Shown: positions 27,873 to 34,022 of the stretch, piece by piece
Position numbering within the stretch: position 1 is the stretch's first letter
Layout: the number at the start of each line of letters is the position of its first letter
NCBI GenBank assembly: GCA_015064545.1
Contig: SVSA01000015.1
Coordinates: 1-34,631 of the forward strand
DNA: 34,631 bases
From: Oscillospiraceae bacterium
GTDB lineage: Bacteria > Bacillota > Clostridia > Oscillospirales > CAG-272
Direction of reading: 5' to 3'
Notes under the pieces: generated by a model
The model's input: the letters and a program-made list of their open reading frames with translations, nothing else
Told to the model about the DNA's origin: nothing
The model's database searches: none
Translations under genes and position numbers: made by a program

Positions 27873-28700
27873 TTAATTTACAAAACGTGTATTTGAATTT
27901 TCTTCGCCTTCAAAATCCCAAGATAACAAATATTTATAACCCCACACTGGATATTCTTCGGAGATAGATAATGTTCTTGTTTGAACATCATAATGCATAC
28001 GTGAAGTTTTTGGTTTGTTTTCATAATCCTCACTATAAATTGGATTATCAGATGAATAATTGTCAAAAATCTTATATTTTAAATTTATTGGAGTTACATC
28101 ATTACTAAATACGACTTTGAGAACCAATTTCTTCGTTTTATGTATGATATTGGATGACAGAAAAGGTAAGGCTTTTTTATCAGGATCTTTCAAATTATCA
28201 ATTTGAATTTGAATTTTCCTCTCAGAAGACTTTGCCATAGGGTCAAAGTTAATACTATAACAATGCCAGTTTTCTTCGCGTTTTAATATCATTTGGCTAT
28301 CACAAGTAAAACACCTTATAGAAATATCATCAAGTTTTTGTTCAACAGACCATTTGAACTTGTCTGAAAAAGAGGATATATCGTTAGTATTTGCCTTTAT
28401 TTTATGAGTTTTAGTATATTTCAATTCAGTACGATTAACATATTGATATACACATTCTTTTTCAAGAACGGTAAATGATTTTCTTGTAAAAAGGTATTTA
28501 ATTCTACTATTTAAGCCATACCTTGCATTAAAGTGAGAGAAAACAATTGCAAGTACAATTAAAACAATAGTAATGACGAGAAAGATGATAGCAATATTGG
28601 AAATATATAAGCTCATTGATTTTATGGATTTAATGGCTATATCTCCAATAGTTATCAAGCCCGACACTAAACTAATCCAATATAGAATCTTATTTCCCAT
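27873..28700 (-). CDS. Two-TM membrane protein with large soluble domain, unknown family
   Basis: The start is set at the ATG at 28700 with GGGGAG 7 nt upstream, rather than the upstream GTG at 28715. 275 residues. Two hydrophobic segments lie at about 5-22 and 33-58 ('ISNIAIIFLVITIVLIVLAIVF'); the remaining 215 residues are soluble and beta-rich, with Trp/Asp-rich segments ('NWHCYSINFDPMAKSSERK', 'YPVWGYKYLLSWDFEG'). The start overlaps the stop of the deformylase-like gene (TAATG), so the two are translated together. The AT-rich composition differs from the backbone. Family not recognised; a membrane-linked effector or sensor is possible. Confidence 0.75.
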   Translation of the reverse strand: MGNKILYWISLVSGLITIGDIAIKSIKSMSLYISNIAIIFLVITIVLIVLAIVFSHFNARYGLNSRIKYLFTRKSFTVLEKECVYQYVNRTELKYTKTHKIKANTNDISSFSDKFKWSVEQKLDDISIRCFTCDSQMILKREENWHCYSINFDPMAKSSERKIQIQIDNLKDPDKKALPFLSSNIIHKTKKLVLKVVFSNDVTPINLKYKIFDNYSSDNPIYSEDYENKPKTSRMHYDVQTRTLSISEEYPVWGYKYLLSWDFEGEENSNTRFVN

Positions 28701-29257
28701 TAACACTCTCCCCACAGTTTATTTACAATTTCTGTTGCGATTAAATTCGGACGTCCATGATAATCATCAACACAACTGCAATGTTCCGTAGATACATGAC
28801 AAATTCCATTTAAATGATCAATTTCATGCTGAAAAACAGTGCTTTTAAATCCTTCTATTGTTTCCTCTATTTCTTCTCCCATTACGTTTTGATATCGAAC
28901 TTTAATTTTTTTATAACGTTGCGTGGTTACAATTGCATCTGGAAAACTCAAACATACTTCTTTTGATTCAGTTAGTTCCCCAATTCCTTGGTATTCGGGA
29001 TTTATAAGAACAATAGGGTTTTTGCCATCCCTTTTGGTATCTATAACACAAATTCTTATAAGTAAGCCAACCTGGTTCGCAGCCAATCCTACGCCTGTTG
29101 GATTAGAGTACAATGTTTCAAACATATCGTGAACAATTTTCTTTAATGAAAATTGAGGATAGTTTTTAATATCAATTTCACGGGCACGTTCGAACAAAAC
29201 AGACTCTCTTAAAGCCAGATCATCTTTAAATATTTGAATTACTGTTAATGCTGCCAT
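28700..29257 (-). CDS. Peptide deformylase-like metalloenzyme (accessory)
   Basis: 185 residues; AGGAGG 8 nt before the ATG at 29257. All three deformylase motifs are seen: I 'GVGLAANQ' (55-62), II 'EVCLS' (100-104, with Val where Gly is usual in EGCLS) and III 'HEIDH' (144-148). C102, H144 and H148 would bind the metal and E145 act as base. Housekeeping deformylases remove formyl groups from nascent proteins and usually sit beside fmt; here the gene is in an AT-rich island, overlapping a membrane protein gene. It may be a second deformylase with a specialised substrate. Confidence 0.88.
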   Translation of the reverse strand: MAALTVIQIFKDDLALRESVLFERAREIDIKNYPQFSLKKIVHDMFETLYSNPTGVGLAANQVGLLIRICVIDTKRDGKNPIVLINPEYQGIGELTESKEVCLSFPDAIVTTQRYKKIKVRYQNVMGEEIEETIEGFKSTVFQHEIDHLNGICHVSTEHCSCVDDYHGRPNLIATEIVNKLWGEC

Positions 29258-29382: not shown

Positions 29383-29411
29383 TTGATTTATTCATAAAAA
29401 TGTGGTATACT
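29383..29411 (+). promoter_or_regulatory. Promoter of the structured leader and Ltp/LRR lipoprotein gene
   Basis: TTGATT, 17-nt spacer, TATACT. The expected start site, about 7 nt downstream, falls at about 29418, the first base of the closing helix of the leader RNA. Confidence 0.8.
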
Positions 29412-29417
29412 AATACT

Positions 29418-29615
29418 GCTAAACCAACTTAATAACTTCAAAAGACACCTGTTTTTCTATGGGGATACTATACCCTTTTTGTCTTTTACATAGTGAATTT
29501 GATAAAAATGCAAATTCCGCTTGTAAAAGACAGGGTGATCTTGTTATTTCAAGTTGGTTTAGCGACTTGGAGTTTGCGTTTTTTGTGCGTTGGCTCCGGT
29601 CAGCGCACTTTTTAA
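29418..29615 (+). ncRNA. Candidate structured leader RNA (riboswitch- or attenuator-like), undescribed
   Basis: The element is closed by GCTAAACCAACTT (29418-29430) paired with AAGTTGGTTTAGC (29551-29563), extended by AATAAC/GTTATT across a 2-nt bulge to 19 bp. Inside, TGTCTTTTACA (29480-29490) pairs perfectly with TGTAAAAGACA (29522-29532), extended outward by TACCC/GGGTG across a 4-nt bulge and inward by GAATTT/AAATTC. The single-stranded part 29437-29470 would lie in one large internal loop. It is followed by an intrinsic terminator (29585) and then the AGGAGG of the lipoprotein gene. TTGGAG (29566-29571) can pair with CTCCGG (29594-29599), an alternative that would open the terminator. 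I do not recognise any known riboswitch core. Confidence 0.65.
29585..29615 (+). terminator. Intrinsic terminator directly upstream of the lipoprotein ribosome binding site
   Basis: GTGCGTTGGC/GTCAGCGCAC (10 bp with G-U pairs) around a TCCG loop, then TTTTTAATTTC. It lies within the leader, six bases before AGGAGG, as in attenuated genes. Confidence 0.8.
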
Positions 29616-29630
29616 TTTCAGGAGGACAGT

Positions 29631-31907
29631 ATGAAAAGAATTATAACTTCGTTGTTCACACTTATTGTAGCTTTCACTATGATATTGGGGCTGACTTCTT
29701 GCAAGAGTGAAGAAGAAAAATTAGTAGATCAGCCTTCTGAATCTTATATTATAGAATGCTTACAAAAAGTACCTTGCATCATAGAAATTGAAGCGGTTAC
29801 CGAAGATAACGACCCCATAGGTCAATTAAATAAGCCCGGTGGATATACAGCTCTCGTGTATTTCTCATACGAACTGGTTGATCAGGAAGAAGTATATGGA
29901 GATGATTTGATAGACAAAGGCACAGATGCTGGCGGATGTATAGAGGTTTATACTACAGAAAAGGATGCTAATAAGAGAAACGAATATTTGGCAGCATTTG
30001 ATGGCGGAGTTCTGACTTCCGGCTCTCATACCGTGGTTGGTACAATCGTAGTTAGAACTTCTGATGAATTAACTGCAACTCAACAAAAATTATTAGAATC
30101 AAACATTATCGCTGCTTTGCAAGGTCAAGATGACAAAATTGTTGCTCCAAAAACCAATTCAAATAATAATGACAGCAACGATGATTCTAATAATGACGAT
30201 GATCCCCCTGCTCAACCAAGCGGTAATACAAAAGAAGATGGCGTAAACGATGCTGAAAAATTTGCAAACGAGTTTGCAACAGAATATCCTAACGATTATT
30301 TAACTCCTAATTACATAACGGAATATTTAAGAGATGTATTGGGGTACTCTGAAACGATAGCGGTTTACGCTACGGAGAACTGTAATATCAGTTGGGCGAC
30401 TCATGCTAAAAAATATGCTCAAGTTTATTTGACCTATGAAGAAGAATTCGGCAGACCTGCGAGCTGGTGGAATCCTTCGGATATTGAGGATATGTTGCTG
30501 GAGGATGGTTTTTCTTATGACACCATTGATGCAACGATGGCAACCATTGATTGGACAGCCCAATCAAAAAAATATGTAAAGCATTTGTCTGAATTTTACG
30601 ATACATTTAATCGTCTTGATGCAAGAGGTTATTTGGAAGATATCGCTGCTAATGAAGCTGGTGTGAACTATCTTTTAGAAAATAGCGGCGTGAATTGGAA
30701 ACAACACGCGCTAAACATGGCAAACGAATTGTGGACAGAATATAGTTCGCAAGGATATTATGAAGATAAAACTGTAGAGTTTATTCTGACAGACATACGC
30801 GAAGAGCTATCTTCCATTTGGGAATATACCCAAGCAGAAATTGATTATGCTATTCAAAACATTACCATAGATAGATGCCGTCATACAAATTTACAGACAT
30901 TAAGTGCTGTTGCCGCAACATGTACGGCTACGGGATTGACCGAGGGCAAAAAATGCAAGGATTGTGGTGAAACTATAATAGAACAATCTACAATCCCTGC
31001 AAGCCACACAGAAGTTGTGGATGAAGCGGTATCTGCCACTTGTGAAAATACTGGATTATCAGAGGGTTCACACTGTTCTAAATGCGGAGAAATAATTGTT
31101 GCACAGCAAGTGCTTTCCATTGTAAATCACTCATTTAACAGTGGTTACTGCCGATACTGCGAATGTGAAGAATATACAACTGGACTTGTATTTACAGAAA
31201 TTACAGGAGGATATGCTGTCACTGGATACAATGGAACAGCCTATTCCATTAAAATTCCTTCTGTATATAAAGATAAAGCAGTTGTTTATATAGACGATTC
31301 TGCTTTTAAAGGAAAATCTTCAATCACTTCGGTTGCTATGGGGGATAATATTACGAGCATGGGAACCAAAGTGTTTAGCAATTGTACCTCTCTTACATCT
31401 ATCAAATTAAGTGAGAATCTAAGTGCTATAGGCGACTATGCATTTGAAGGATGTTCAAAACTATCAAGTGTATCCGTGCCTAATTCGGTGGAAAAAATCG
31501 GAAACTATGCATTTAGCGGTTGTACAAAGCTAAGCAAAGTTGTTTTTGGAACAGGATTAAAAACAATAGGAAAATATTCATTCTCAAACTGTTCGGCTTT
31601 AGAATATGGTAATAGTTATACCAAGTTTACAATCCCCGACACAGTCGAAAGAATCGAAAAAGGAGCATTCAATAATTGCACCACTCTATCAAACAAAGGC
31701 ATGCTTTACATTCCTTCGTCTGTTACATATATTGAGTGTGGCGCTTTTACTGGATTTGAACTAAACGATATTGGTTTTAGTGATGGCACAGGATGGTATT
31801 ATTACAAATCAGAAACAGCCACGGGAACAAGTGTGGATATGAGATATACTTCTAATAGCTACACATACTTGAGCAAAACATATTCAGGCTATCTAATAAA
31901 AAAATAA
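29631..31907 (+). CDS. Large lipoprotein: Ltp-like repeats, cysteine motifs and BspA-like leucine-rich repeats
   Basis: 758 residues; AGGAGG 4-5 nt before the ATG. Signal peptide with lipobox LTS-C (Cys24). An N-terminal domain (about 25-170) is followed by an Asn/Asp-rich linker. From about 205-410 come repeats resembling the host-cell-surface lipoprotein Ltp motif: 'LGYSETIAVYATENCNISW', 'DGFSYDTIDATMATIDW'. Two segments with paired CxxC motifs (about 415-505; 'CTATGLTEGKKCKDCGE', 'CENTGLSEGSHCSKCGE') match a repeat common in Clostridia surface proteins. From about 550 to 710 lie LRR_5 repeats ('SAFKGKSSITSVAMGDNI', 'YAFSGCTKLSKVVF'). It should be displayed on the cell surface. Ltp-type proteins of phages block superinfection; adhesion is an alternative role. 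Confidence 0.85.
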   Translation: MKRIITSLFTLIVAFTMILGLTSCKSEEEKLVDQPSESYIIECLQKVPCIIEIEAVTEDNDPIGQLNKPGGYTALVYFSYELVDQEEVYGDDLIDKGTDAGGCIEVYTTEKDANKRNEYLAAFDGGVLTSGSHTVVGTIVVRTSDELTATQQKLLESNIIAALQGQDDKIVAPKTNSNNNDSNDDSNNDDDPPAQPSGNTKEDGVNDAEKFANEFATEYPNDYLTPNYITEYLRDVLGYSETIAVYATENCNISWATHAKKYAQVYLTYEEEFGRPASWWNPSDIEDMLLEDGFSYDTIDATMATIDWTAQSKKYVKHLSEFYDTFNRLDARGYLEDIAANEAGVNYLLENSGVNWKQHALNMANELWTEYSSQGYYEDKTVEFILTDIREELSSIWEYTQAEIDYAIQNITIDRCRHTNLQTLSAVAATCTATGLTEGKKCKDCGETIIEQSTIPASHTEVVDEAVSATCENTGLSEGSHCSKCGEIIVAQQVLSIVNHSFNSGYCRYCECEEYTTGLVFTEITGGYAVTGYNGTAYSIKIPSVYKDKAVVYIDDSAFKGKSSITSVAMGDNITSMGTKVFSNCTSLTSIKLSENLSAIGDYAFEGCSKLSSVSVPNSVEKIGNYAFSGCTKLSKVVFGTGLKTIGKYSFSNCSALEYGNSYTKFTIPDTVERIEKGAFNNCTTLSNKGMLYIPSSVTYIECGAFTGFELNDIGFSDGTGWYYYKSETATGTSVDMRYTSNSYTYLSKTYSGYLIKK

Positions 31908-33880: not shown

Positions 33881-34022
33881 GATGCGTACCGGAGGCGGAT
33901 TTTTACGTTCCGTTTTTGCCGTTATGAAAGGAGGTGGTGCTTATGAAAATTACCCTTTTTGTATTTTTCATATATTCTTGCACATTGAACAAACATATCA
34001 ACCATCGCCTCCGTCGCGCATC
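33881..34022. other. Long-range imperfect inverted repeat around a small ORF
   Basis: GATGCG (33881) pairs with CGCATC (34017-34022) and CGGAGGCG (33890-33897) with CGCCTCCG (34006-34013), separated by a 3x3 internal loop. The enclosed arm holds an AAAGGAGG and the small ORF at 33943. It could be an extension of the large RNA or a translational control element. Confidence 0.5.

Follow-up and report, generated by a model that had tools for sequence, protein, structure and literature searches.

A predicted transcription-attenuation leader RNA of a new family in gut Clostridia

What kind of RNA precedes the lipoprotein gene near the end of the window (the whole 34,631-nucleotide stretch that we analyzed, contig SVSA01000015.1 of an Oscillospiraceae bacterium; all coordinates are positions in it, and all features of the element are on the forward strand)? 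The putatively regulated gene (29631-31907, with its ATG at 29631) encodes a secreted lipoprotein with BspA-type LRR_5 repeats and is preceded by the Shine-Dalgarno (SD) sequence AGGAGG at 29620-29625. The original prediction saw upstream of it an undescribed leader laid out like a riboswitch or attenuator, with no known aptamer core. Scans of the window and of its homologues against Rfam 15, including the 6S models, returned only tRNAs and chance-level matches at both gathering and relaxed E-values, and no description of the element was found in the open-access literature (non-open papers and preprints lay outside that search). Judged by its homologues, the element in the region 29418-29613 is a member of a large RNA family that is new, being absent from Rfam 15. 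We consider it probable, at roughly three chances in four, that this family consists of cis-acting leaders that attenuate transcription, for which a riboswitch with putative ligand binding would be the simplest reading. This view is based on a terminator and an antiterminator that share bases, on a covarying sensor domain close to the promoter, and on the position of the element in the 5' leader of a gene, with an SD-led gene behind most copies.

The proposed search for homologues located the element upstream of other genes in the same genome (1.83 Mb in 117 contigs, 82% complete) and in many Clostridia. The two further copies in this genome, on contigs C78 and C100, have about 68% identity (BLAST); one is upstream of a row of hexapeptide acetyltransferase, acyltransferase, and AMP-ligase genes, and the other precedes the gene for another protein with BspA-type LRR repeats. 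Homology between copies spans the -35 box to the terminator T-run. Matches were found in 29 of 98 relatives, and a covariance model of the long form (R1, built from 22 copies) matched 78 of the 295 genomes of the window's order (one genome per species) and 44 of 291 genomes of the class Clostridia; across 399 genomes of the phylum, searched with R1 only, the window's own genome was the sole match. The weaker R1 matches represent a short form (about 130 nt) that is built on the same principle and for which a second model (R2) matched 89 of 391 Clostridia genomes (one genome per species). With a more exhaustive R2 search, 23 matches were obtained in genome G603, 9 in G002 (same genus), and 8 in G101. 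Altogether, 194 Clostridia elements were extracted, 155 of them long (the window type) and 39 short. A pattern scan of named genomes recovered metagenome-assembled genomes of gut Clostridia, most of which came from ruminants, along with a single cultured species, Pumilibacter intestinalis, of which strain CLA-AA-M10 has a full copy. Since matches in phages were limited to two weak ones in metagenomic "Bacteriophage sp." records, with none in plasmids and none by exact pattern in IMG/VR, phages and plasmids are not the main carriers of the element. It is thus widespread, with up to ∼23 copies per genome, yet absent from Rfam.

Many copies with target duplications, as in a miniature inverted-repeat transposable element (MITE), had been named as an observation that would speak against a leader RNA. 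The copies are indeed many, their terminal complementary arms are long, and some lie near tRNA genes, all of which would suit a mobile element whose palindromic folds are terminal repeats. We regard this as barely credible, because copies within the window's genome are only 68% identical, the helices covary, homology runs exactly from the -35 box to the terminator, and 20 of 22 cases show no tRNA-end repeat downstream of the genes. Judged on identity, boundaries, and covariation, a recent MITE does not account for copies that are diverged, conserved in structure, and bounded by promoter and terminator. tRNA genes show an approximately 6-fold enrichment at distances of up to 1 kb from an element, which they nearly always precede in the same orientation (among others at L009:917-1240, L070, L077, L088, L116, L117, L152, L159, and L193). 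Integration at tRNA sites was rejected on the same 22 cases, in which the tRNA 3'-end repeats amounted to one 16-nt and one 11-nt match. Tandem copies occur at L083:936-1471, L104:3666-4236, L191:657-1078, and on contigs C2, C11, and C35 of G603; in L083, promoter, leader, and gene start have been duplicated together as a whole unit, with a broken first gene, and in L191, the 5' half of the first copy is missing.

The promoter is at 29383-29411, where it was originally placed, with a -35 box TTGATT (29383-29388), a 17-nt spacer, and an extended -10 element (TG.TATACT; -10 hexamer at 29406-29411). By itself, this pattern is at chance level (8 sites found, 7.1 expected), but a -10 hexamer lies 3 to 8 nt before the closing helix, P1, in 162 of 186 distinct homologues (exactly 5 nt in 113), and this conserved distance supports the promoter in the window. 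The predicted +1 is the first base of P1, at 29418, in agreement with the earlier placement, and the homologous elements likewise always start at about +1. Divergent from this promoter is a peptide deformylase gene (28700-29257); the ORF that follows it (27873-28715) has no Pfam match.

Folding recovered the 19-bp helix with one 2-nt bulge that was described as closing a 146-nt domain. This predicted sensor domain (29418-29563, from fold and covariation) is closed by P1, with 13 bp between 29418-29430 and 29551-29563 and, beyond the bulge, an extension of 6 bp between 29431-29436 and 29543-29548. The 208-nt leader (29418-29625) has a folding energy of -76.2 kcal/mol (z = -7.8), and none of 200 shuffled sequences was as stable. 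In 102 homologues, 9 of the 13 P1 pairs are changed on both sides and 97.7% of cells are paired; pair 9/212, for example, is UA in 38 sequences, AU in 36, CG in 24, GC in 3, and GU in 1. The concern that the main helices might lack covariation is therefore dispelled for P1, and P2 and P4 proved partner specific in swap tests. P2 (29442-29445 with 29539-29542 and 29446-29450 with 29533-29537, from the minimum free energy fold and the swap test) and P4 (29480-29490 with 29522-29532) vary freely in sequence while keeping the pairing with their own strands: P2 strands reach -13.9 kcal/mol with their own partner and -7.4 kcal/mol with swapped ones, and P4 strands (120 homologues) reach -18.1 and -8.1 kcal/mol, respectively, with the reservation that the relatedness of the copies inflates all shuffle and swap tests. 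The segment GGGATAcTATACCCTTTTT (29461-29484) is conserved in the long-type homologues, and a small hairpin within it, P3 (29461-29464 with 29473-29476), is a tentative, weakly supported pairing. At the apex, GAATTTG (29495-29501) and CAAATTC (29511-29517) form a predicted hairpin that is paired in 93 to 102 of the 102 homologues at each position. The long-form consensus reads tGCcAAACnAAytnaATA ... rgg..anTaTaccytTTTt ... tGaATTTGrTAAAAatGCAaATTCC ... arTTnGTTTgGCgACnATCGGAGTTTGCGTTTTT, followed by the terminator. A 22-nt stretch of the window at 33951-33972 is 91% identical to the conserved positions 29471-29492 of the element (E value of 0.12) and could be a chance match or a remnant.

Comparison of the copies revealed a pseudoknot that is invisible in the single sequence on which the original prediction was based. 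Its predicted strands, AAAAATGCAAATTCC in the P4 loop (29504-29518) and GGAGTTTGCGTTTTT just 3' of P1 (29569-29583), form 15 bp (AAAAAYGCAAAUUCC : GGAGUUUGCRUUUUU). Across 102 homologues, 99.2% of its cells are paired, and 122 of 127 long elements retain at least 8 of the 9 pairs of its 9-bp core. For P1 and the pseudoknot together, 98.5% of cells are paired in 102 sequences, compared to 29 to 54% in slid-register controls, and covariation is 0.250 versus 0.114 after shuffling (0 of 500 shuffles as high). Nearly all sequence changes preserve pairing; some are two-sided, as in L013 (GCAGATTCC/GGAGTCTGC) and L023 (GCGACTCC/GGAGTTCGC, with a bulge), and most are one-sided (A-U to G-U) because the 3' strand hardly varies. 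The short form has an equivalent in GCAUACUC with GGAGUURUGC. The apical hairpin competes locally with the pseudoknot, the upstream competitor of the loop strand being GAAUUUG in long elements and GUAUG in short ones.

An intrinsic terminator (hairpin at 29585-29608, T-run at 29609-29613) stands directly before the AGGAGG of the lipoprotein gene, as had been noted. Its stem covaries in 52 homologues, above all 500 shuffles of these diverse copies. An alternative pairing that could disrupt the terminator had also been noticed; the pairing itself is borne out, but its 5' coordinates, given as 29566-29571, were off by one, the true register being 29567-29572 (UUGGAG) with 29594-29599 (CUCCGG). 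It is not "weaker" either, since it belongs to a 14-bp antiterminator (29564-29579 with 29587-29601) for which RNAfold gives -17.2 kcal/mol, compared to -15.9 kcal/mol for the terminator hairpin. This predicted antiterminator hairpin (29564-29601, from fold and covariation) pairs 29564-29567 with 29598-29601, 29569-29574 with 29592-29597, and 29576-29579 with 29587-29590. Terminator and antiterminator folds are close in energy, where the enforced-antiterminator energies are lower bounds (the constraint was not honored in every sequence) and were used only for this closeness; in several copies without the pseudoknot, RNAfold favors the terminator over the antiterminator. Covariation of the antiterminator in the 52 diverse copies is 0.220 versus 0.151 after shuffling (0 of 500 as high), and its duplexes have -12.3 kcal/mol with their own strands and -10.2 kcal/mol with swapped ones (standard deviation, 0.14). 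Compensating changes are seen in L070 (AATTGGAGA/TCTCTGATT), L082 (AAGCGGAGC/GCTCTGTTT), L073 (AAATGGAGTT/AGCTCCGTTT), L089 (AAAATGGGGCC/GGTTCCGTTTT), and L010 (AATCGGGG/CCCCGGTT). The 3' pseudoknot strand CNAUCGGAGU can also pair with ACUUCGGUNG, from the loop and 3' arm of the terminator, a complementarity that could be partly coincidental because the loop CUUCGG is a common stable tetraloop. The antiterminator uses the GGAGTT of this strand, and with GGAG common to both, pseudoknot and antiterminator are mutually exclusive. A leader-peptide attenuator was rejected, since the 102 leaders contain no conserved ORF; an SD-led short ORF is present in 17 of them, with spacings in all three frames.

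These three competing folds (pseudoknot, antiterminator, and terminator) appear to set whether the gene is on or off. Sequence comparison establishes the family, P1, P2, P4, the pseudoknot, the terminator, the antiterminator, and the exclusion that results from shared bases. In the model that we propose, the RNA would start at the first G of P1, and the P1-closed domain with P2 to P4 would act as the sensor. The strand GGAGUUUGCGUUUUU just behind it would have two alternative partners. By pairing with the P4 loop strand AAAAAYGCAAAUUCC, it would form the pseudoknot and leave the downstream hairpin free to fold as the terminator, so that transcription would stop before the gene. If the loop strand were instead kept in the apical hairpin, the antiterminator would form between GGAG with its neighbors and the loop and 3' arm of the terminator, and the gene would be transcribed. 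The choice would be made during transcription and set by a signal that stabilizes or blocks the pseudoknot; the sign of the response would be as drawn here, and the effector is presumably a small molecule. The fuller proposal, that the long and short forms make up a new riboswitch class that senses a putative widespread intracellular signal, pits its sensor-loop pseudoknot directly against the antiterminator, and governs, in gut Clostridia, a dispersed regulon of genes for surface and secreted proteins and for small accessory ones, seems to us evenly balanced between right and wrong. If such a switch exists, one signal would reach dozens of unlinked genes of unassigned function, many of them for surface proteins, in uncultured gut bacteria. 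Its parts are mapped finely enough for point-mutation tests, and P. intestinalis CLA-AA-M10 is a cultured carrier.

Might the leader instead be constitutive? A blunt 5' end, in which pairing is complete from the first P1 base on, and a leaky terminator could serve as an unregulated stabilizer or insulator; this is improbable, as it offers no explanation for the 15-bp pseudoknot, the competing antiterminator, or the conservation of the loop strand. That a protein or RNA polymerase itself reads the leader (via an antitermination factor, a NusG paralogue such as LoaP, or as a put/EAR-like RNA that modifies the polymerase) is a possibility that we hold to be rather unlikely. The put, EAR, and LoaP-associated antitermination RNAs act right after the promoter on downstream terminators, and the constant start of the element at about +1 and its diverse, often accessory or surface genes would suit such a global factor. 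Polymerase-modifying RNAs, however, need neither an antiterminator/terminator pair nor a covarying pseudoknot, and the element has a covarying local antiterminator against one adjacent terminator and controls mostly a single nearby gene, not a long operon.

The attenuation reading fits better with transcriptional riboswitches, which share the leader position, a conserved sensor domain, terminator/antiterminator alternatives, and a pseudoknot as the switching element. Unlike the riboswitches in Rfam, to which it has no sequence or structure match, the element includes its promoter and +1 in the conserved unit, and unlike most metabolite riboswitches, it precedes genes too diverse to indicate a pathway. 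T-box leaders are likewise terminator/antiterminator leaders in Clostridia, whereas the genes behind the element are not aminoacyl-tRNA or amino acid genes, and the T-box model has no match in the window. c-di-GMP riboswitches (classes I and II) occur in many copies per genome and control surface and accessory genes in Clostridia. The element has no Rfam match to them, and GGDEF proteins, the sole proteins examined for co-occurrence, went undetected in the genome of the window (G000) and in other carriers (G002, G323, G603, G535, G583, G355, and others), several of them element rich and some incomplete, which makes c-di-GMP unlikely as the effector.

The 6S-like rod RNA that was originally offered as an alternative, a stand-alone small RNA with its own promoter and terminator, shares the rod-like fold of 6S RNA (SsrS), and 13 of the 194 copies, most at contig ends, have no obvious gene right behind them. 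We find it very improbable, since 6S covariance models have no match in the window, nor is there another Rfam match, genomes carry up to ∼23 copies, and in most copies the terminator leads directly into a ribosome-binding site and gene start. The start codon follows the T-run at a median of 23 nt (at most 40 nt in 117 of 158 copies), and the downstream ORF has a ribosome-binding site in 155 of 174 cases.

The genes behind the element are very diverse, including those for BspA-type LRR proteins, lipoproteins, AMP-ligases, and small Cys-rich proteins; such a wide range speaks for a general signal. Among 143 downstream proteins scanned, 20 are BspA-type LRR proteins, 8 contain SHOCT domains, 6 are AMP-binding proteins, and 6 have zinc ribbons; many of the remaining ones are small proteins without a family or are predicted to be lipoproteins. 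A search for a link to defense systems gave scattered single PADLOC hits only. Some downstream proteins recur. A small Cys-rich protein (ITGIELTPGxPxxCLGNGEQGFECCCDECDYFLLC) follows the element on unrelated contigs (L023, L028, L048, L104, L165, L190, and L209), and a second one (MKCENYLCIYE...C..C) is found in L084, L151, and L187. In L052, L115, L118, and L174, the element precedes genes for small AbrB/MazE-like proteins, four in all, whose tail is Cys rich (CKICHEKI). AMP-binding ligases that share the start motif LTGYPSIDKPWxKYY (L021, L053, L088, L094, L181, and L009:3065-4789) lie in rows with acyl- and acetyltransferases, possibly forming a lipid or polymer pathway.
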